A stretch of DNA of 64,000 nucleotides from Simplicispira psychrophila DSM 11588. Its GTDB lineage: Bacteria > Pseudomonadota > Gammaproteobacteria > Burkholderiales > Burkholderiaceae_C. The notes under the pieces were generated by a model, which did not search any database, had not been told where the DNA came from, and worked only from the letters and a program-made list of their open reading frames with translations. This document shows positions 4,124 through 63,228 of this stretch, piece after piece. The first letter of the stretch is position 1. Each line of letters begins with the position of its first letter. A program made the translations under genes and the position numbers. Location of the stretch: NCBI RefSeq assembly GCF_000688255.1, contig NZ_JHYS01000001.1, positions 248,001 to 312,000 on the forward strand, given 5' to 3'.

Positions 4124-4498
4124 GTCCATATTTCCTTGTTGTGCCTACCGTTGGATATGAAGTCCGGCAGGCACCGCCTGCAATGATCTTCAAAAGAGTG
4201 TGGTTATTTTGCTGCATCGCAACAACATTCACAGCCGCATGGGTAGAATCCCTAACATTGCAGCACATGAATTTACATGCGCTGATTGGCAAATTTCCCT
4301 GCAACTGCCATGCAACGATTGTCTCCTCCATCTCCTTAAAAGGATGGATTCAGCCCCCAGCCTCACGGCTAGGGGCTTTTTTTTGGCTTATCGAGGCAGG
4401 CCCCCTGTGGCGCTTCTGAGCGCCGTTCCTGCGCGCCTATGATGGTTGCCGCCCGACCCCACGCACGGTGGGCGCCGCCATTTCGCATCTCCGACCCC
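4124..4498. other. Intergenic region between OsmC gene and ilvA
   Basis: This is 375 bp between the divergent OsmC and ilvA starts. It holds the OsmC promoter side, a possible small transcript ending in the terminator at 4352-4384, and the ilvA leader. A second imperfect stem (TCCAT..TCCTT with AAGGATGGA, about 4327-4349) lies just before the terminator. No protein gene here is convincing. Confidence 0.5.
4352..4384 (+). terminator. Intrinsic terminator upstream of ilvA
   Basis: The stem pairs AGCCCC and AGCC (4352-4362, one mismatch) with GGCT and GGGGCT (4367-4377) around a TCAC loop, followed by eight Ts. It reads on the plus strand but no gene precedes it on that strand, so it ends either a small RNA or an attenuated ilvA leader transcript. 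Confidence 0.8.
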
Positions 4499-22623: not shown

Positions 22624-25600
22624 ATGGTGCAATATTCTCGGCGCCAGTTCATGCAAGTGACTGGCTCCACACTGGCGGGCTCCAGCCTGGCGTTGATGGG
22701 TTTTTCACCCACCAATGCCTTGGCTGAAGTTCGCCAATACAAGCTCGCCGCCACCACGGTGACGCGCCAGACGTGCACGTACTGCTCGGTCGGCTGCGGC
22801 GTGCTGATGTATTCGCTCGGTGACGGCAGCAAGAACACCCGCTTGTCGATCATGCACATTGAGGGCGATCCGGACCACCCGGTCAACCGTGGCACGCTGT
22901 GCCCCAAGGGCGCCGGTCTGCTGGACTTTATCCACAGCCCCAATCGCTTGCAATTCCCCGAATACCGCGCGCCCGGCTCGAACGAGTGGAAGCGCTTGTC
23001 GTGGGACGACGCGCTAACGCGCATCAGCAAGCTGCTCAAGGACGACCGCGACGCCAACTTCGTCGAAAAGACCGAAGATGGCCTGACCGTCAACCGCTGG
23101 ATCACCACCGGCATGCTGGCTGCTTCGGCGTCCAGCAACGAAGCCGGTTACGTCACACACAAAGTGGCCCGCAGCTGGGGGCTGCTCGCACTCGATAACC
23201 AAGCACGTGTCTGACACGGCCCGACGGTGGCAGGTCTTGCCCCGACGTTTGGCCGTGGAGCGATGACGAACCATTGGGTCGACATCAAGAATGCGGACGT
23301 TATTTTGATCATGGGCGGCAATGCCGCCGAAGCACACCCGTGCGGCTTCAAGTGGGTGACCGAAGCGAAGGAGCACAACAAGGCGCACTTCATGGTGGTC
23401 GATCCGCGCTTTAACCGTTCTGCCTCGGTGGCCGACTTTTACGCGCCGATTCGTTCTGGCAGCGACATCGTCTTTTTGGGCGGCGTCATCAACTACCTGC
23501 TGACCAACGACAAGATCCACCACGAGTACGTGAAGAACTTCACCGACTTCACCTTCATCGTGCGCGAAGACTTTGCGTTTGAGGATGGCATTTTCTCGGG
23601 CTACGACCCGGAAAAGCGCACCTACGACAAGGCCTCCTGGGACTACGAGTTGGGCGAAGACGGTTTCGTGCGCACCGACCCGACGCTGCAACACCCGCGC
23701 TGCGTCTATCAGTGGCTGAAAAAGCACTACGCCGAGTACACGCCCGAGAAGGTCGAGAGCGCCTGCGGTACGCCGAAAGAAAAATTCCTGCACGTGTGTG
23801 AAAAATTGGCCAGCACGGCACAGGCCGGTCGCGCTGCGACCATCCTGTATGCGCTGGGCTGGACACAGCACTCCACCGGCTCGCAAATTTTGCGCACCGG
23901 TGCCATGGTGCAGTTGCTGCTGGGCAACATCGGTATTGCCGGCGGGGGCATGAATGCGCTGCGTGGGCACTCCAACATCCAGGGTCTGACCGACCTGGGC
24001 CTGTTGTCAGCCAGCCTGCCGGGTTACCTCACATTGCCTGGGCAGGGCGAGCAGGACTACCAGAAGTTCGTCAAGGCGCGCACACAACTGCCGATGCGCC
24101 CAGGGCAGATGAGCTACTGGCAGAACTACTCCAAGTTCCACGTCAGCCTGATGAAGGCTTGGTGGGGGCCAGCGGCCACGGCAGAGAACAACTGGGCCTA
24201 CGACTACCTGCCCAAGCTGGACCGCCAGTACGACATGCTGCAGTACTTCGACATGATGAAGGACGGCAAGGTCAACGGCTACATCGCCCAGGGCTTCAAC
24301 CCGCTGGCGTCGCTGGCGGACAAAACCCGCGTGCGCAGTGGCCTGGCCAAATTGAAATTCCTGGTGGTGATGGACCCGCTGCAGACGGAAACCGCCGACT
24401 TCTGGAAGAACTACGGCGAGCACAACGACATCGACACCGCCTCGGTGCAGACCGAAGTGTTCCGCCTGCCGACCACCTGCTTTGCCGAAGAGGAAGGCTC
24501 CATCGTCAGCTCCTCGCGTGTGCTGCAGTGGCACTGGAAGGCGGCCGAGCCACCGGGCGAAGCCAAGACCGACGTCTACATCATGTCGCAGCTGCATTTG
24601 CGCCTGAGCCAGATGTACCAGCAGGACGGCGGCAAGTTCCCCGATCCGATCACCAACTTGTGGTGGCCTTACGCCCAGCCCGGTCACCCCAGCTCGGAAG
24701 AAATCGCCAAGGAATACAACGGCCGTGCACTGAGCACCCTGCTGGACCCGAAAGACCCGACTAAGATCATCCGCAAGGCGGGCGAGCAACTGGCCGGCTT
24801 TGGTGAGATGCGCGATGACGGCAGCACCCTGGGTGGCTGCTGGATTTGGGCCGGCGCTTGGCCACAGGCCGGCAACCAAATGGGCCGGCGTGACAACTCC
24901 GATCCAACCGGCATTGGCAACACGCTGAACTGGGCCTGGGCCTGGCCGGCCAACCGCCGCGTGCTCTACAACCGGGCCTCGTGCGACGTGGCGGGTAAAC
25001 CGTTTGACGCCAAACGCAAGTTGATCGGCTGGAACGGCACCACCTGGAGCGGTGCCGACGTGCCCGACATGGGTGTGGCGCTGGCACCCGAGACGGGAGC
25101 CGGCCCCTTCATCATGAACCCCGAGGGCGTGGCGCGTTTCTTTGCGCGCAAGGGCATGAACGAGGGGCCATTCCCGACGCACTACGAGCCGTTCGACACG
25201 CCATTGGGCTACAACCCGATGTACCCGAAGAACAAGAAGGCGACCAGCAGCCCGTCAGCCCGCGTGCTACCCGGTATCTGGGAAACCTTCGGCACGGCCG
25301 AGGAGTTTCCGCATGTCGGCACCACCTACCGCCTGACCGAGCACTTCCACTACTGGACCAAGCACGCTTTGCTCAACGCCATCAGCCAGCCTGAGCAGTT
25401 CGTTGAAATCAGCGAATCTTTGGCCGAATCGATCGGCGTCAAAACCGGCGAGATGGTCAAGGTCAGCTCCAAGCGCGGCTTCATCAAAGCCGTCGCCCTG
25501 GTGACCAAGCGCATCAAGCCGATGCAGATCGAGGGCAAAACGGTGCAACACGTCGGTATCCCGATCCACTGGGGCTTCAAGGGCTTGACCAAGCCTGGCT

Positions 25601-31705: not shown

Positions 31706-31801
31706 GGAAGGCAAATGCACCCGGTGGTGTGCCCGGGCTTCAAACCCGGTAAGGGGCGTCAGCCGCTCCTTGGTAGGTTCGACTCCTGCTGCTTTCCGCC
31801 A
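31706..31801 (+). tRNA. selC: tRNA-Sec (anticodon TCA)
   Basis: This is a 96-nt tRNA with an 8-bp acceptor stem (GGAAGGCA against TGCTTTCC, one G-T pair), a long D arm, and anticodon loop CTTCAAA with anticodon TCA closed by a CCGGG/CCCGG stem. It also has a long variable arm, GGTTCGACTCC in the T arm, and encoded GCCA at the 3' end. These are the features of selenocysteine tRNA and align with E. coli selC. It lies directly after selB and decodes the UGA of fdnG. Confidence 0.95.
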
Positions 31802-50347: not shown

Positions 50348-51772
50348 ATGCCCCCACCGCGCCCCTTGACCCCCAGCTCCTTTGCCGACGCCCTGGGTCT
50401 GCCGTCCTCAGCCAGCAACAGCGCCATGATTGCGCTCTACAGCGCCGCCCTGGGGCCCGTGCAATTGCCACGTTATCTGGCGCTGTTTGAACGCTTTGAC
50501 CGTGCCGGACGCGCGCCCCTGGGCTGGAACCTGACGGCCAGTCTGGTCACGCTCAATTGGATGGCACTGCACGCCATGTGGGGCGTGGCGCTGGTGTATC
50601 TGGCGCTGATTGAAGGACTGGGGCTGGTGGTGTTCGGCGTCGCCCGGCCGATGCTGAATATGCCTCCAGCCATCGAATATGGCCTGCTCGCCGGGCTGGC
50701 AATTTTTGCCTTCGCGCTGCCCGGCCTGTTTGGCGACGCCCTGCTCCACACCGAGATCCGCAAGCGCATCGCACGCGCCATCGCCACCGCGCCCACCCTG
50801 CCTGAAGCCTGCGCCCTGCTGGAACGCCAAGCCAGCAGCCGACCCCGGCTGCTGAAAATCGCGGCCATCAACGTGCTGCTGCTGACAGCCGTGGCGGCGG
50901 CCCTGATCCTGGCACCGCCCAGCGGCTGGGGTCAAGCCAGCCCCAGTGCCGATTCAGCGCCCACGCTGTCTGGCAAGGTAAAACAGGTCAGCGCAGACCC
51001 GGGCACACCCATCATTCCCGCCACGCTGCCAGGCTTGCTCAGCCCAGCCAAACCCGCCGCAGTGCTGCCCGCGTCCGACGCCGCCCAGCAGTCCAGTGCA
51101 CTGAACGCCCCGGTCAACGCCGCGACACCCGCGCCAGCGTATATCCCGCTGCCCGCACAAGAACCCGCCGCAGTGCCGCCAGCCCCCCTGCCGCCACCTT
51201 TGCCGGCCCCCCTAACCACACCGGCGCTGGCGCCCTCGCCCCCGCCTGCGCCCACTGCCGCGCCCACCAAGGCCGAGAAAAAAGTGCGCGACAAAACCCC
51301 CACCGCCACAGTCCCCGAGAAGGTGGCAGAAAAAGAGCCAGCAAAAGTCCCTGAGAAAAAGCCAGACACCACGCCCGCCAAAGCAACGAAAAAAATAGCA
51401 GACCGGGCATCGGCAAAGTTACGCAAAAAATCCGCATCGCCTCTACCCGCCCCGGCTGAAAAAGCGCCCGTGGCCACTGCCAGCACGCCTGCCACCAGCG
51501 ACAGCGACAGCCCCCTGCCGACGGCCGGCAGCGCGGCGGGCCACTACTTCAACGTCGGCGTATTTGCTGAAGTCGGCAACGCCCGTCGCGCCCAAGCCAA
51601 GCTGCTCAACGCCGGCCTGCCCGCCTTCCGCCAGACCGTCACCAGCCCCAAAGGCGAGCTCATCCGCGTGCGCGTAGGCCCGTTCAGCAGCGCCGCCGAG
51701 GCCCAAAAGGCCCGCCAGCAGATCCGCCGCCTGGGACTGGAAGCCGTCGAGTTCCGCCAGCGCGCGCAGTAA
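50348..51772 (+). CDS. Membrane protein with C-terminal SPOR domain
   Basis: This is a 474-residue protein. The N-terminal third has several hydrophobic helices (residues about 60-120 and 180-200). Then comes a very long Pro/Ala/Lys-rich linker that would span the periplasm. The C-terminal 80 residues are a SPOR domain (HYFNVGVFAEVGNARRAQAK, VRVGPFSSAAEAQKARQQIR), which binds denuded septal peptidoglycan. Usual SPOR proteins have one helix, so the multi-helix N-terminus is unusual. A role at the division site or cell wall is inferred. It is followed by the DUF262 gene 33 bp later. Confidence 0.82.
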   Translation: MPPPRPLTPSSFADALGLPSSASNSAMIALYSAALGPVQLPRYLALFERFDRAGRAPLGWNLTASLVTLNWMALHAMWGVALVYLALIEGLGLVVFGVARPMLNMPPAIEYGLLAGLAIFAFALPGLFGDALLHTEIRKRIARAIATAPTLPEACALLERQASSRPRLLKIAAINVLLLTAVAAALILAPPSGWGQASPSADSAPTLSGKVKQVSADPGTPIIPATLPGLLSPAKPAAVLPASDAAQQSSALNAPVNAATPAPAYIPLPAQEPAAVPPAPLPPPLPAPLTTPALAPSPPPAPTAAPTKAEKKVRDKTPTATVPEKVAEKEPAKVPEKKPDTTPAKATKKIADRASAKLRKKSASPLPAPAEKAPVATASTPATSDSDSPLPTAGSAAGHYFNVGVFAEVGNARRAQAKLLNAGLPAFRQTVTSPKGELIRVRVGPFSSAAEAQKARQQIRRLGLEAVEFRQRAQ

Positions 51773-51805
51773 GGGCGCTGGCTACCGTCAAGGGTGCACA
51801 TCTCT

Positions 51806-53275
51806 ATGCGAGCAACACCCGCCGTGGTGCAAATTGTGGCGCTGCCCGATTTGCTGACTTTGCAGCGCTTGCGCATTCCCATCTACCAACGGCCCTACCA
51901 GTGGAGCAGCAAACACGTGCTGCAATTACTGGCCGATATCGAGCAGCAATGCCTGGTGTCGCCAGCGCTGGGGCCAGACAGCTACCGGCTGGGCACGGTT
52001 GTCTTGCATGACGAAAAACAGGGTGAGGAAACTAAAGCGCTGAACATTGTCGATGGGCAGCAGCGCTGCGTAACCTTGCTACTGGTGCTGCATGCCCTCC
52101 GGGCGCAGCGCGGCCCTGCGGCCGTCCCTGCAGTGGAGCCGGTGGATGTGGCAGTTGCAGTCATTGCGCCAGCAGAGGCCGATACACAGGTTTACCAGCA
52201 ATTGGCTGGTCTGCAGCTGTTTGACCCACACTTGGAGGACATCTTGTCGCAGCGCAATGTGCGCGACAACTATGCGCTGATTGCACGCCATTTGCGTCAG
52301 ACCCAGTGGGGCGCGGCGCAGATACGCTTTTTGCTGCAGCGCTGCGAGGTGGTGTTGGTCAAACTCCACAGCTTGGCCGAAGCCTTTCAGTTTTTTGATG
52401 CACAAAATGCGCGCGGCAAAGACTTGTGTGCGCATGATTTGCTCAAGGCCTATCACTTGCGGGCTTTGCGCCCGCACGAGCAGGCCCAGAGTCCCAGCGC
52501 CGTGCAGGCGTGGGAGCGCTGCTCACAAGAGGAGTTGCACCGCTTGTTTGCTCGCTTTTTGTTTCAAGTGCGCCAACGCGCCCGCACGCTAGAGGCCGAG
52601 TCGTTTGGCAAGCTGCAGGTAGGAAGCTTCAAAGGGCTGCGTCTGGACACGCAAGCCACCTCTTTCCCCCTGGCGAACACCTGGCGCCTGCTGGATGCCG
52701 CCGTCCACCGGATCGAAAACCATGGTGATAAGCGCGGTGCGGTATGGCCTTGCCAGCTGGATGCACCCGTGGTGAATGGACTGCGTTTTTTTGACTGGGT
52801 ACAGCATTACTGGCGCATGGATTTTCACCAGCAGCAAGCGCCTGATCAGCTGCCGCCCTGGGTGCAGCGGCTGGAGCGTACCCAAGGGCTGCAGCTGGAC
52901 GCTGAGGCACGCAGCATTTTGCTGACCTTGGGCCGCTACCCGGGCCACTGGCGCAAAGGGGACGGCCATGTGCGTGCGGTGTTTGATGCCTTGCTGATGT
53001 ATTACGTAGACAAATTTGGTGACTACGAACTGTCGCGGGCGGTGAAGCAGGCGTTTGTGTGGGCCTATTGGCGCTTGCTGGACCGGCGGGTGCTGGCCGG
53101 CAGCATGGACAAGTTTGTGCGTGAATGCTTATCCAACCCTTTTGCTGTGCTGCGGGATGCAACGACGCCGCAAGCCTTTTGGGAGATGGAACTACCCCCA
53201 GCCACTTACAAAAAGGACGGTCCTGTGGAGGGTTTGGATCCATTGAAAACCTTGATGCACACCTTGGGGTATTAG
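51806..53275 (+). CDS. DUF262 domain protein (GmrSD-type N-terminal domain)
   Basis: This is a 489-residue protein with the DUF262 motifs in order: YQRPYQW (27-33), GTVV followed by VDGQQR (82-87), and FDAQNARGKDL (197-207) followed by DLLKAYHLR. The C-terminal half is helical; no HNH motif is visible. DUF262 is the GmrS-type nucleotide-dependent module of type IV restriction enzymes and is ParB/Srx-like. The start at 51806 has AGGG 11 nt upstream. DNA here is less GC-rich than flanking genes. It is followed 13 bp later by a broken second DUF262 gene, forming a pair. Confidence 0.85.
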   Translation: MRATPAVVQIVALPDLLTLQRLRIPIYQRPYQWSSKHVLQLLADIEQQCLVSPALGPDSYRLGTVVLHDEKQGEETKALNIVDGQQRCVTLLLVLHALRAQRGPAAVPAVEPVDVAVAVIAPAEADTQVYQQLAGLQLFDPHLEDILSQRNVRDNYALIARHLRQTQWGAAQIRFLLQRCEVVLVKLHSLAEAFQFFDAQNARGKDLCAHDLLKAYHLRALRPHEQAQSPSAVQAWERCSQEELHRLFARFLFQVRQRARTLEAESFGKLQVGSFKGLRLDTQATSFPLANTWRLLDAAVHRIENHGDKRGAVWPCQLDAPVVNGLRFFDWVQHYWRMDFHQQQAPDQLPPWVQRLERTQGLQLDAEARSILLTLGRYPGHWRKGDGHVRAVFDALLMYYVDKFGDYELSRAVKQAFVWAYWRLLDRRVLAGSMDKFVRECLSNPFAVLRDATTPQAFWEMELPPATYKKDGPVEGLDPLKTLMHTLGY

Positions 53276-53288
53276 AAGGAGGCTGCGC

Positions 53289-54692
53289 ATGGCGAGCGAA
53301 CATGAGCCGCAGTTGCTGAGCGTGCAGCAGGTGCTGGCCAAAGATGCCTATTGCATTCCGGTCTATCAGCGCAATTACGCATGGGGGGTGGATGAAATCA
53401 CCCTGCTGATGGCCGATGTGCAGGACTCTGTAGAGCGCCCGGACGCGCAGGACTATTACATCGGTACCTTGGTGGTGTTACGGGCGCAGCCCTACCGCCA
53501 GCACCAGCACTGGCACGCAGCAGGAGCAATGGGAGGTGGTAGATGGTCAGCAGCGGCTGACCACGTTGAGTTTGCTGGTGTCGGTCTTGCGCGGGCTGGG
53601 CGATGTGATTGCCCCCCAACCGATTGCCGCGCTGCAAACGTTGACGACACAAAACAAAAAGTTACCAACTGAGGCGGAGCCGAGCGATGAAGAGGAGAAG
53701 GTGCAGTTTGGCCCGGTGATCAACTTCCCCAACTTTTTGCTGCAAGTGCTGGCGTTAATGCCGCACAAGGCTGAAGAAAAAACACCGCTGGATGACAAGC
53801 ATTTGCTAGACGCATTTAAAGCCGCGCTGTATCCGTCCCAGGAAACAGAAGGGGTGGAGCTGCTGGTGCTGCGCCTGCAGCGCGTGCGTTACTTTGCTTT
53901 TGTGCTGCTGCGCTGCAGCAAGTGAATAGCTTTGGCAAACAGGATGTGGGGGATGACGAGGGGGCGTTGCCTGGCCGCATTCGCATGTTGCAGGCGGCTT
54001 TTCACGTCTCCTACATGCTGCCTACCCGCAAGCATTGGTTGCAGGGGGTGCTGCGCTGGCTGCTGCAGCAAGACATGCACCGGGCCATTGACGCAGCGGC
54101 ATTCTTGGCGCAACTGGAGGCGTTGGCCAAGGCCTTTGTGCTGGAAGTGGGCTCCGATGCGGAAGATGCCCCCGGCTATGAGGATGTGGTGCGCCGAAGC
54201 GGTGGCTTTGACCGTGCAGCGGCCGTCCCGCTGGATGAGGGAGTCTGGCTACAGAAGCTGTGCTATGGCTCCGTGCGCTTGATCGACTTCAACTTCTTGG
54301 ACTACCTGCTGTGGCTGCAGGGCGACGTGGCGGGAGGGAAAGATTTTGCCTTTACCAGCAGCCGCCGTTCTGTGGAACATTTACATCCGCAGACGCCGTT
54401 GGCGGGCGTAATACCTTGGCCAGAGCAGCAGCAGCAGCTGCATACTTTTGGCAACCTGTGCTTGGTAAGCCATGCGATGAATTCCCGTTTGGGCAATGCC
54501 GTTCCAGAGGGCAAGTTTCAGCAGCTTTTGCACGAAAAACGCCATTGCAGCCTGAAAGTATTGGCCATGCACCAAGCATTCCAAGAAAAAGGCGCATGGA
54601 CTGCGGAAACTGCGATACAGCACCATCAAGCCCACATGCTGCAACTGCTGCGGCAGGCCTTTGCGTCGAATGGTTTGATTCAAACCTCTTAA
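53289..54692 (+). pseudogene. DUF262/HNH-like (GmrSD-type) protein, disrupted by frameshifts
   Basis: Three consecutive reading frames carry parts of one protein. The first (53289-53672) has LLSVQQVLAKDAYCIPVYQR and YYIGTLVV. The second (up to 53925) has the expected VVDGQQRLTTLSLLVSVL and FPNFLLQVLALM. The third (53922-54692) has the C-terminus, including SVEHLHPQTP and TFGNLCLVSHAMNSRLGN, the HNH-like DUF1524 motif region. A +1 shift lies between about 53480 and 53535 and a -1 shift near 53880-53925. The F-x3-N-x-RG segment between them is not seen, so an internal deletion is likely. This is inferred from comparison with the family as I remember it. Confidence 0.75.
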
Positions 54693-54754
54693 AAATCGCA
54701 AGAAAGGACCTCTCGCAAGCAAGGCAATCAGCATGATTTCCACTCCCGGCCCCC

Positions 54755-56647
54755 TCACTCCACCGTCACACTCTTGGCCAAATTGCGCGGCTTATCGACG
54801 TCGGTGCCGCGTGCCACCGCCGTGTGGTAGGCCAGCAGTTGCAGCGGCACGACATGCAGCAGCGGGCTTAACGCGCCGTAGTGCTCGGGCATACGGATGA
54901 CGTGGATGCCATCTTCGCTGTCGATGCGCGTGTCGGCATCGGCCAGCACGTACAGCACGCCGCCGCGTGCGCGTACTTCCTGCATATTGCTTTTGAGCTT
55001 TTCCAGCAGCGCGTCGTTCGGCGCCACCGTGACCACTGGCATAGCGCTGGTGACCAGTGCCAGTGGGCCGTGTTTCAGTTCCCCCGCCGGGTAGGCCTCG
55101 GCGTGGATATAGCTGATTTCTTTCAGCTTGAGCGCGCCTTCCAAGGCAATCGGGTAGTGCAGGCCCCGGCCCAGAAACAGCGCGTTTTCCATGCGCGCAA
55201 AGTCTTCGGCCCAGCTGATGATTTGCGGCTCCAGCGCCAGCACCGCCTGCAAGGCCACCGGCAGGTGGCGCATGGCGGTGAGGTGCGCGGCTTCCTGCTC
55301 CTCGGTCAAACGGCCCTTGCTTTGCGCCAGTGCCAAGGTGAGCAAAAACAGGCCGGCCAGTTGCGTGGTGAAGGCCTTGGTGCTGGCGACGCCAATTTCA
55401 ATGCCGGCACGGGTGATGTAGGCCAGCGCACATTCGCGCACCATGGCGCTGGTGGCGACATTGCAGATGGTCAGCGTGTGCGGATGGCCCAGGCTTTGCG
55501 CGTGGCGCAGCGCCGCCAAGGTGTCCGCCGTTTCGCCCGACTGGCTGATGGTGACGATGAGCTGGCGCGGATTGGGCACGCTGGTGCGGTAGCGGTATTC
55601 GCTCGCCACCTCGACCTGGGTGGGGATTTGCGCGATGCCTTCCAGCCAATATTTGGCGACGCAGCCGCTGTAGTAGCTGGTGCCGCAGGCCAGGATCAGC
55701 ACCGAGTCGATCACTTGGAACACGCGGTAGGCGCCGTCGCCAAACAGCTCGGGCACGATGCCTTGCACGCCGTCCAGCGTGTCGGCAATGGCGCGTGGCT
55801 GCTCGAAAATTTCTTTTTGCATGTAGTGCCGGTACGGTCCCAGCTCGGCGGCGCCGCTGTGCGCCTGCACGGTGCGCACCGGGCGCTGCTCGGCACTCAG
55901 CGCGCGCCCGTCTTGGCCGGTGATCCAGTAGCGACCCGGTTGCAAGTCCACCAGATCGCCCTCTTGCAGATAAATGATTTGGTCGGTCACGCCGGCCAGC
56001 GCCATGGCGTCGCTGGCCAGAAAATGCTCGCTGCCGTCCTGCCCCACGCCCAAAATCAGCGGCGAGCCGGCGCGCGCACCGACCACACGCTGCGGTTCGT
56101 CCTTGTGCATCACGGCAATGGCAAACGCACCGTGCAGTTGCGCCACCGCCGCCTGCACCGCCTCAAACAAGTCACCGCTATACAGGCTGTCCACCAGATG
56201 AGCGACGATTTCGGTGTCGGTCTGGCTGGCAAAGACATAGCCTGCCGCCTGCAGGCGGGTGCGCAAGGCTTCGTAGTTTTCAATGATGCCGTTGTGCACC
56301 AGCGCCACCCGGCCAACGGCGGTGCCCTCAGCGGCGGCATCGACCGTGGCCCCGTAGCTGAAATGCGGGTGCGCGTTGCACTCGACCGGCGCGCCGTGCG
56401 TCGCCCAGCGGGTGTGGGCAATGCCGGTGCCGCCTTGAATGTGGTCGCTTTGCACGCGCTCCATCAATTCAGAGACGCGCGCCGTGCTGCGCGCACGCTG
56501 CAAGCCGCTGGGGCGGGTGCTGCCCCGGCTGACGGCATGGATGGCCACGCCGCAGGAATCGTAGCCACGGTATTCGAGCCGCTGCAAGCCCTGTACCAAC
56601 ACGGGCACGATATTGCGCGATGAAACTGCCCCAACGATGCCGCACAT
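54755..56647 (-). CDS. glmS: Glutamine-fructose-6-phosphate aminotransferase (isomerising)
   Basis: GlmS makes glucosamine-6-phosphate, the first step to UDP-GlcNAc for peptidoglycan and lipopolysaccharide. The 630-residue protein starts [12 protein letters not shown] with the catalytic Cys2 of the N-terminal glutaminase. It has [24 protein letters not shown] and two sugar isomerase (SIS) domains ([34 protein letters not shown]). It ends in LAKSVTVE, the family C-terminus. No glmS ribozyme is seen, as expected in proteobacteria. It is divergent from an Lrp regulator. Confidence 0.97.
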
Positions 56648-61410: not shown

Positions 61411-63228
61411 ATGGAGATGACTACATCATCAAAAGTATCGACATCGCACTGGCTGCCAACTGCTGCCTTGATTGCAGCGTTTGCAAGTATGGTTTGGCTG
61501 CGATTCGATCTCGTTAACAGCACAGTCAGTTCTTATACCGATTGCGGCAATGATTGCCGCAATTGGATTATCCCTGCGTACGACGTCGGAATTCTTGCGC
61601 TTATTTTCATACTCATTGGAGCCGCGTATATTGCTCCTCGCTGGACTAAGCCCTTACTGACAGGTTTAGGAATTTTAATACTTGTATCTTATGGTATTGA
61701 TTTATTCGTTTTCCTGCTGCTTCACCATCGACTCCTTTTGACCGATATTCTTCGTTTTGCTGGTGACGTACAACTCAATGGCACAGTTGCGCTACCACAG
61801 CTCAGATCATTTACCGGCATATTGCTATTTTTTCTACTTATCAGCAGTTGCGCTGCATTAATATTACTAATTACCAAGGCACCGCGCAAGCCCAAAAAAG
61901 CACTCATATTTCTTATACTCTCTCCTGTGTTATTGGCAGCACGCGCAATCCCGGATGATTTCAACCATGTCTCATCCAATTTATATAAAGATGTAATCAC
62001 TAACAATCTTCCTCATGGTTCGGATGCTCCATACTCCGCTACCACCTCGGTAAACCACCTATTCATCCCTGAGCCGGCTTTAACCTGCATCACATCAAAG
62101 AGTACACCACAGCCCGTTATTTTACTGGTCATGGAGTCTTTATCCCTCTACCAAAGCCAATATCTTTCTGGGCTTGATGGATTCTTACCAGAATTGGATC
62201 TCATTGCCAAAAAATACAGCCATCTCGAGTATTTTTACGCCAATGGATTCACTACCGATGGAGGTCTGATTGCATTGTTGACAGGCCATGTTCCACTGCC
62301 TAGCATCAATCGATACAGAAGCACCAGTGCCTATCTCGGCTATGAGAAACCCAAGCAAGATCTTTTCAATCGACTCGCTAAAGCCCAGATTCCAGCCACG
62401 TACTTTCGATCTGCGGACCAGGGCTTCCTGAATACTGGCGATTGGCTACGTCAATTGAACTTCAACTTTGTCGACGGCCCAGAAAATACTTTTTACAATG
62501 GCATGCCCAGAGGCTCATTCAATGAGCCAGGCGATAAAGCTTTATACCAGCGGTATTTGCAGTGGTTTGACAAGGAACGCACATCAGACGTTTTCTTCTC
62601 GGTTATACAGACCACTACCACCCATCCACCCTTTATCGTACCCGGCACCGAACTACGGGGAGAAGAAGCCGCGTTTCGTTACGCTGATCAAGCATTGGGC
62701 GATTTTGTACGGGAACTAGAGCACCGGAAATTCTTTGACCATGGCACCCTTGTGATCACTGGAGATCATCGCAGCATGACCGCCCGTCGGCGTAACGAAT
62801 GGGAGAGGATAGGTCGCGACGCGTATGCGCGGGTTCCCGCCATCCTTGTTAGCGCTGCACACCGCAACAGGGGTGCAATTAGGGGGACATGGCAACAAAC
62901 CGACTTCATCCCATCACTGCTGGACACCATGGGACTGGAATCATGCACTAGTGATTTCGCAGGCCGCTTCCTTGGGCCCATCCAGCCAGCCAAATATATT
63001 CTGCATACACAGGGGGCAGAACGGGATCGCATACTGGTTCGAGTTCAAGGCAACCCGAAAATACTCGAGGTTCAACTCGATGGAGATAACACGCACTGGC
63101 GTATCGCGCCTGAAGAAGAAAATAACAATGAGGTGGTACGAGAAATTAATCGTGAACGATCACAACTGCCTGTGTCAGAGCCTGATTTCGCAGCCGGGGT
63201 ATTGCAATGGTATGGTTTAAAAAAATGA
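61411..63228 (+). CDS. LtaS/phosphoethanolamine-transferase-like membrane sulfatase
   Basis: This is a 605-residue protein with about five N-terminal membrane helices and a large periplasmic alkaline-phosphatase-superfamily domain (sulfatase PF00884). VILLVMESLSLYQSQY starts the domain. FTTDGGLIALLTGHVP holds the likely Thr nucleophile, and TTTTHPPF and VITGDHRSM are metal-site segments, as in LtaS and EptA-type enzymes. It may transfer a phospho-head group to an envelope glycan; the substrate is not known. The start is ATG 61411 or 61417. The DNA is much AT-richer than all neighbours, indicating horizontal transfer. Confidence 0.85.
   Translation: MEMTTSSKVSTSHWLPTAALIAAFASMVWLRFDLVNSTVSSYTDCGNDCRNWIIPAYDVGILALIFILIGAAYIAPRWTKPLLTGLGILILVSYGIDLFVFLLLHHRLLLTDILRFAGDVQLNGTVALPQLRSFTGILLFFLLISSCAALILLITKAPRKPKKALIFLILSPVLLAARAIPDDFNHVSSNLYKDVITNNLPHGSDAPYSATTSVNHLFIPEPALTCITSKSTPQPVILLVMESLSLYQSQYLSGLDGFLPELDLIAKKYSHLEYFYANGFTTDGGLIALLTGHVPLPSINRYRSTSAYLGYEKPKQDLFNRLAKAQIPATYFRSADQGFLNTGDWLRQLNFNFVDGPENTFYNGMPRGSFNEPGDKALYQRYLQWFDKERTSDVFFSVIQTTTTHPPFIVPGTELRGEEAAFRYADQALGDFVRELEHRKFFDHGTLVITGDHRSMTARRRNEWERIGRDAYARVPAILVSAAHRNRGAIRGTWQQTDFIPSLLDTMGLESCTSDFAGRFLGPIQPAKYILHTQGAERDRILVRVQGNPKILEVQLDGDNTHWRIAPEEENNNEVVREINRERSQLPVSEPDFAAGVLQWYGLKK

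Follow-up and report, generated by a model that had tools for sequence, protein, structure and literature searches.

Restriction systems of the GmrSD family in which two DUF262 proteins act together have already been described. According to Vizzarro and colleagues (PMC11411939), TgvAB of Vibrio cholerae is encoded by two genes that lie inside a type I restriction cluster (VPI-2, VC1767-VC1766). Both TgvA and TgvB contain DUF262, which is the only domain named for the first gene in that description, and TgvB adds DUF1524. The two proteins are both required to protect E. coli against Tevenvirinae, and protection requires the DGQQR motif of each of them as well as the nuclease residues of TgvB. 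The same work reports 1,341 tgvAB matches across many orders, many of them outside type I loci, and a review that gives the order of the cluster states that T2 mutants lacking glucosylation ability escape TgvAB (PMC12409362). GrwAB also consists of two DUF262 proteins, one with DUF1524 and both required; its nuclease-bearing gene comes first, and the partner is described as having a long C-terminus with multiple unknown domains (PMC12137116). The first GmrSD described was split into DUF262 and DUF1524 proteins (PMC10952713). Finally, a 2015 survey reported an enrichment of DUF262 genes in the vicinity of GmrSD homologues, and named type I genes as their most frequent defence-gene neighbours (PMC4619093).

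We analyzed a stretch of 64,000 nucleotides from Simplicispira psychrophila DSM 11588 (hereafter, the window) that harbors two adjacent, co-directional genes, A and B, related to these systems (Table 1). The pair very probably represents the remnant of a horizontally gained TgvAB-type operon, of which B was recently inactivated and A was left as an intact orphan. A preliminary description of the locus had identified an intact DUF262 protein followed 13 bp later by a second, broken DUF262-type gene with an HNH/DUF1524-like region, and had assigned the two to a GmrSD-type module. The domain matches and the loci of other genomes detailed below confirmed this much. The same description considered the paired arrangement to be a variant defence system, which does not stand, as two-protein GmrSD systems are already published (TgvAB, PMC11411939; GrwAB, PMC12137116). 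The window copy thus adds one inactivated example of a known system.

Table 1. Features of the A-B module and of its flanks (window positions; residue numbers of B refer to the Comamonas testosteroni protein).
Feature	Coordinates	Strand	Description
Left flank, SPOR-domain protein	50348..51772	+	outside module; used for empty-site test
Gene A, TgvA-type	51806..53275	+	intact; 489 aa; GmrSD_N (DUF262) + DUF7834
Gene B overall	53289-54692	+	GmrSD_N + GmrSD_C; ATG 53289, 13 bp past gene A
Gene B piece 1	53289..53477	+	DUF262 domain start; residues 1-66
Gene B piece 2a	53518..53652	+	other frame; residues 73-113; DGQQR motif
Gene B piece 2b	53584..53916	+	same frame as 2a; residues 294-389
Gene B piece 3	53907..54692	+	back in the frame of piece 1; residues 423-675; GmrSD_C/DUF1524 His-Me (HNH) domain
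Right flank, glmS-type gene	54755..56647	-	outside module

As judged from its sequence, gene A is a still-intact reading frame left as an orphan; it would code for 493 rather than 489 residues if read from a GTG at 51794 instead of the ATG at 51806. Pfam assigned residues 16 to 217 to GmrSD_N (E = 3.5e-27) and residues 232 to 467 to DUF7834 (E = 3e-38). The motifs QR (Q28, R29), DGQQR (D83-R87), and FxxxN (F197...N201) are present in the alignment, and gene A has retained 60 of the 60 columns that are invariant in 16 relatives. Across the 17 aligned A proteins, the window's included, DGQQR and FxxxN are invariant, DUF262 is always present, and no nuclease match was found. These relatives are 30 to 60% identical to gene A, the nearest reaching only about 60%, and hence specificity may differ. 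An adjacent, intact pair in Comamonas testosteroni (L016) is 56% identical to gene A and 47 to 62% identical to the pieces of gene B, which, together with the profile matches, places the match of the pair beyond chance.

Other searches with these sequences returned little. No NCBIfam family was found for gene A or the three frames of gene B (four pieces), and a search of PDB sequences gave weak DUF262 matches only. PADLOC matches to the HEC-06, Orf5, and SspE profiles were all partial, such that a quick annotation might mislabel the system. HEC-06 as a single full-length protein was ruled out, as the best stretch couples residues 10 to 100 of A with positions 11 to 94 of the 558 in the profile (E = 9.2e-28). 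In a search of the literature we found no paper naming DUF7834, and the match for PD-T4-2 together with DUF262 was a review.

Gene B begins with an ATG preceded by a likely, good-looking ribosome-binding site and is covered by three frames that overlap one another. Pfam recognized the start of GmrSD_N in the first (53289-53672; E = 2.1e-9), GmrSD_N in the second, below the Pfam cut-off (53536-53925; E = 1.2e-4), and GmrSD_C (DUF1524) in the third (53922-54692; E = 1e-11). The HNH-like region pointed out in the preliminary description, with SVEHLHPQTP/FGNLCLVSHAMNS, sits inside the last of these matches, and the catalytic residues H...N...N of the nuclease are present in the same frame.

The damage to gene B was mapped by piecewise alignment with its nearest intact relative, the 681-residue B protein of L016. 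One frame change lies between 53477 and 53518, and a second, at the junction of pieces 2b and 3, brings the gene back to its first frame; the alignment of piece 3 spans 53907-54677. Two frameshifts had indeed been proposed beforehand, but the damage is larger, because about 180 to 200 residues (roughly 114 to 293 of the reference, with uncertain edges, as 69 bases are shared between the alignments of pieces 2a and 2b) and a further stretch of about 33 residues (390 to 422) are missing as well. The total loss amounts to about 213 of 681 residues, and the gene has 468 codons, stop included, versus 682 in the reference. Much the same pattern was obtained with the B protein of L017 as a reference. 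An alignment of 15 intact B proteins has 77 invariant columns, of which 24 fall in the missing stretches (22 and 2, respectively). DGQQR and FxxxN are invariant in those 15 proteins; in the window, FxxxN (F203...N207 of the reference) is inside the missing part wherever the blurred edge is put, and QR and DGQQR are in different frames. By these alignments, gene B is a deletion pseudogene. The repeats around it are short, and none was found that plainly accounts for the deletions.

Could the gene be intact in the cell, its frame changes and gaps being errors of sequencing or assembly? Its overall length is divisible by three, the first frame is regained after the second change, and the two pieces that were scored keep every invariant column (all 12 in piece 1 and all 21 in piece 3), all of which would fit such errors. 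However, base-calling errors do not remove close to a third of a protein from two separate places together with that many invariant columns, and the gene lies on a contig of 452,864 bases in a genome rated 100% complete. We thus regard this explanation as very unlikely, even if mis-assembly could be responsible for part of the decay. With some 213 codons missing, resequencing 53440-53930 for frameshifts, as had been suggested, would not make the gene whole. The survival of the invariant columns and of the H, N, and N residues in gene B, along with the conservation of gene A, rather suggests that the breakage is recent.

We also considered that A and the nuclease fragment (53922-54692, 256 aa from an in-frame GTG) might still operate in the manner of a split GmrS + GmrD system, as in the GmrSD first described (PMC10952713). 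The fragment is open and retains its catalytic residues, but its start was created by the frame break, and inspection by eye revealed no good ribosome-binding site in front of that start. Moreover, TgvAB is reported to require DGQQR in both partners (PMC11411939), whereas the sensor domain of the window's B is broken, which makes a functional split system highly improbable. Since no complete sensor domain can be made from gene B, the window copy should be a dead restriction system, i.e., a remnant of a TgvAB-type operon devoid of working TgvAB function.

The occurrence of the pair elsewhere was investigated by collecting loci with an A-type gene, defined by a score of >100 bits with the A profile and a better score than with the B profile. 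Forty stretches were examined and 38 retained, one being dropped because it contains another (L067, which contains L019) and one because it holds only the single-chain protein of genome G1074 (L065); six of the 38 (L033, L034, and L069 to L072) were hand-picked from plasmid matches. In 36 of the 38 loci, a co-directional B-type gene was present no more than 1 kb away, and in the other two (L032 and L063) the contig ends at that point, in line with the co-occurrence that the preliminary description had proposed to check. As the stretches were chosen for holding an A gene, these counts show that A was not seen without B in them rather than how frequent the pair is. The B-type gene overlaps gene A in 33 of the 36 paired loci, mostly by 4 to 14 bp; the longest overlaps (74 to 118 bp) depend on the choice of the first possible start codon. 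When 340 class-level genomes were searched with the B profile, 11 passed E = 1e-30, the window's own included. Four of these matches are weak and cover the N-terminal part only, and all six of the other full-length or near-full-length ones adjoin an A gene. The B genes of G434 and G1151 (L055 and L066) were not listed by this search, maybe because these genomes are outside its 340.

Intact B proteins combine the DUF262 sensor and the nuclease in 15 of 15 aligned cases, and the A protein likewise carries DUF262 but has no nuclease match. The proposal that sensor and nuclease are encoded by separate genes must therefore be abandoned. With DUF262 at one end and DUF1524 at the other, intact B resembles single-chain GmrSD and BrxU proteins (Eco94GmrSD, PMC4437046; BrxU, PMC10952713). 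In those systems, however, one protein acts, and the pair is set apart from a single-chain GmrSD by the nuclease-less DUF262 partner gene, which is present in the window as well as at 36 of 38 loci.

For 8 of the 38 loci (L016, L018, L021, L059, L061, L062, L066, and L072), some neighbours of the pair were compared with Pfam, and record annotation was used for L033, L034, L069, L070, and L071; the record of L072 carries no annotation. Type I restriction genes were found near the pair in L016, L018, L059, L062, and L066; there were none among the one or two neighbours tested in each of L021, L061, and L072. L059 has the order hsdM-hsdS-A-B-hsdR, with each of the five genes confirmed by Pfam, which places the pair between hsdS and hsdR, as is reported for tgvAB. 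The order is the same in L062, except for one extra, unchecked open frame between hsdM and hsdS. In L016, the nearest relative, hsdM and hsdS are upstream of A-B; hsdR directly follows the pair in L018, hsdM is downstream of it in L066, and L033 has hsdS and hsdR upstream.

Compared with TgvAB through its published description, the pair family fits by its domains, its gene order, and its setting: a DUF262 gene is followed by a co-directional gene for DUF262 and DUF1524, and the H...N...N residues of the His-Me nuclease are kept even in the window's B. The window copy differs from TgvAB by the two deletions and two frame changes of B, and by its neighbours, a SPOR-domain gene and glmS in place of a type I locus. 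That the pair might instead be GrwAB appears extremely unlikely. GrwAB shares with it the two DUF262 proteins, one of them with DUF1524, but is described as having the nuclease gene first and a multi-domain partner C-terminus (PMC12137116), whereas the nuclease gene comes second in the window and its partner is a 489-residue protein with DUF7834. The tgvAB order inside type I loci, seen in relatives of the window pair, also argues against GrwAB.

Structure predictions were compared with solved folds, with the caveat that several of the rmsd values below are large and that mostly helical parts can give middling, unspecific Z scores. The model of gene A (mean pLDDT 83.5) matched SspE (Z 15.5, rmsd 19.5, 390 residues aligned) and DndI (Z 13.6, rmsd 5.7, 377 residues aligned), both alignments running along its length, and more weakly BrxU (Z 6.1, rmsd 18.0). 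For the intact B protein of L016 (pLDDT 78.2), the matches were to SspE (Z 18.8, rmsd 9.0), DndI (Z 15.8, rmsd 14.3), and BrxU (Z 12.0, rmsd 10.5, 405 residues aligned). The closest solved folds to both models are thus those of the phosphorothioate-sensing proteins SspE and DndI, which act together with dnd/ssp modification genes. In a profile-profile comparison of A and B, the DUF262 halves alone align (E = 5e-26), and hence the sequences do not show that the helical half of A descends from that of B.

In the mechanism that we propose, the two proteins of a TgvAB-type operon would constitute a type IV restriction system of the GmrSD family, which depends on DNA modification; in intact relatives, A and B are translated from genes that overlap or touch. 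According to published work on TgvAB, both DUF262 domains, with their nucleotide-hydrolysis motif, are needed to sense phages bearing hypermodified cytosine, the modification being glucosylated or arabinosylated hydroxymethyl cytosine. The His-Me nuclease of B would be the likely effector on the hypermodified phage DNA. We infer that A corresponds to the body of a GmrSD-like protein lacking the nuclease, and that it may pair with B much as single-chain relatives pair with themselves. In the window, the operon would have been gained between the SPOR-domain gene and glmS, and two deletions inside gene B, along with two changes of frame, would then have disrupted it; this copy should confer no protection, with A remaining as an orphan.

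The genomic setting is consistent with such a gain. No type I restriction genes are beside the window copy, whose neighbours are the SPOR protein and, to the right, a gene that we take to be of the glmS type (glutamine-fructose-6-phosphate aminotransferase). Of the 25 other genomes in the genus, 21 have a full-length homologue of the latter, at 83 to 88% identity. In five genus relatives, both flanks are on one contig (G002, G004, G006, G010, and G017, with only the end of glmS in G006), and none of the five holds A or the nuclease part of B between them. The gap between the SPOR gene and glmS ranges from 0.9 to 8.6 kb in these relatives; it is about 0.9 kb in G010 and G017, and in G017 it contains an acetyltransferase-like gene (named by eye). 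The most similar SPOR protein, at 72%, is that of G024, where the next gene is thioredoxin-like (named by eye) and the contig carrying the SPOR gene has no A, no B nuclease part, and no glmS. The contents of the interval that corresponds to window positions 51773-54754 differ among the five relatives, and this stretch may be a frequent insertion site.

Base composition had been put forward as a sign of recent gain. The GC content is indeed lower, at 0.592 for gene A and 0.56 to 0.58 for the pieces of gene B, versus 0.62 to 0.69 for six other window genes measured, and this is consistent with gain from outside, albeit as weak evidence. The empty site in 5 of 5 genus relatives is better evidence. 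The operon was likely gained from outside.

Retention of gene A by selection after the loss of B, with A working alone or with another partner such as the single-chain GmrSD-type protein encoded elsewhere in the same genome, seems very doubtful to us; if true, A would act as a general co-sensor (DUF262/DUF7834) that different nucleases can share. The gene of this single-chain protein is intact and lies on a different contig (G000:C10; L002, 1375-3117), coding for 580 aa with matches to GmrSD_N (E = 9.7e-31) and GmrSD_C (E = 1.2e-5).

Decay was also observed in other copies of the pair. In a plasmid of Picosynechococcus sp. PCC 7117 (L034, 5980-10126), A is intact and B is split into three pieces, the one with the nuclease being preceded by an IS1 transposase. 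The opposite loss occurred in G364 (L053, 4098-7478), where A is in two frames and B is intact. Copies of the pair can thus lose either gene singly, as happened to B in the window and Picosynechococcus, and to A in G364. In Pseudomonas fluorescens, loss of PFLU4242, a protein with DUF262 and DUF1524, is reported to relieve the cost of megaplasmids (PMC8544851), and by analogy, adaptive loss of a GmrSD-type gene could be behind such decay.

DUF7834 is sporadic. It was found in 4 of 399 genomes at the family level, 4 of 398 at the phylum level, and 11 of 369 at the class level, the window's own counted each time and the last number including a weak match in the single-chain protein of G1074; it was found in none of 14 control genomes. 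Its association with the TgvA-like partner of two-protein GmrSD systems, as suggested by these sequence comparisons, could provide a handle for finding such pairs. Some match to gene A was present in 9 of the 26 genomes of the genus, counting that of the window. A full-length A of the window type is present only in the window's own genome and in G014, and G012 has a distant pair (L068). Relatives of gene A were found at 17 loci of named genomes, none of them from V. cholerae. In plasmids, 899 of 72,556 records matched gene A, 854 of which are from Klebsiella; 758 of the 899 are rated conjugative. On Klebsiella plasmids, the pair has two distinct relatives in which the A and B frames are open (e.g., in L033, NZ_CP055414.1, and L070, NZ_KY271405.1), their A proteins being about 35% and 29% identical to that of the window, respectively.

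Additional features were observed elsewhere in the window. Positions 4320-4383 match Rfam RF02278, a Betaproteobacteria toxic small RNA, with 57.8 bits (gathering score 50). A SECIS_3 element and a tRNA-Sec are present at 23209-23267 and 31706-31801, respectively, and the genome therefore probably reads selenocysteine. Lastly, a low-GC stretch at 61411-63228 (about 0.50, versus 0.58 to 0.72 in most of the window) encodes a 605-residue membrane protein that has, by eye, a sulfatase-type (LTA synthase-like) look.
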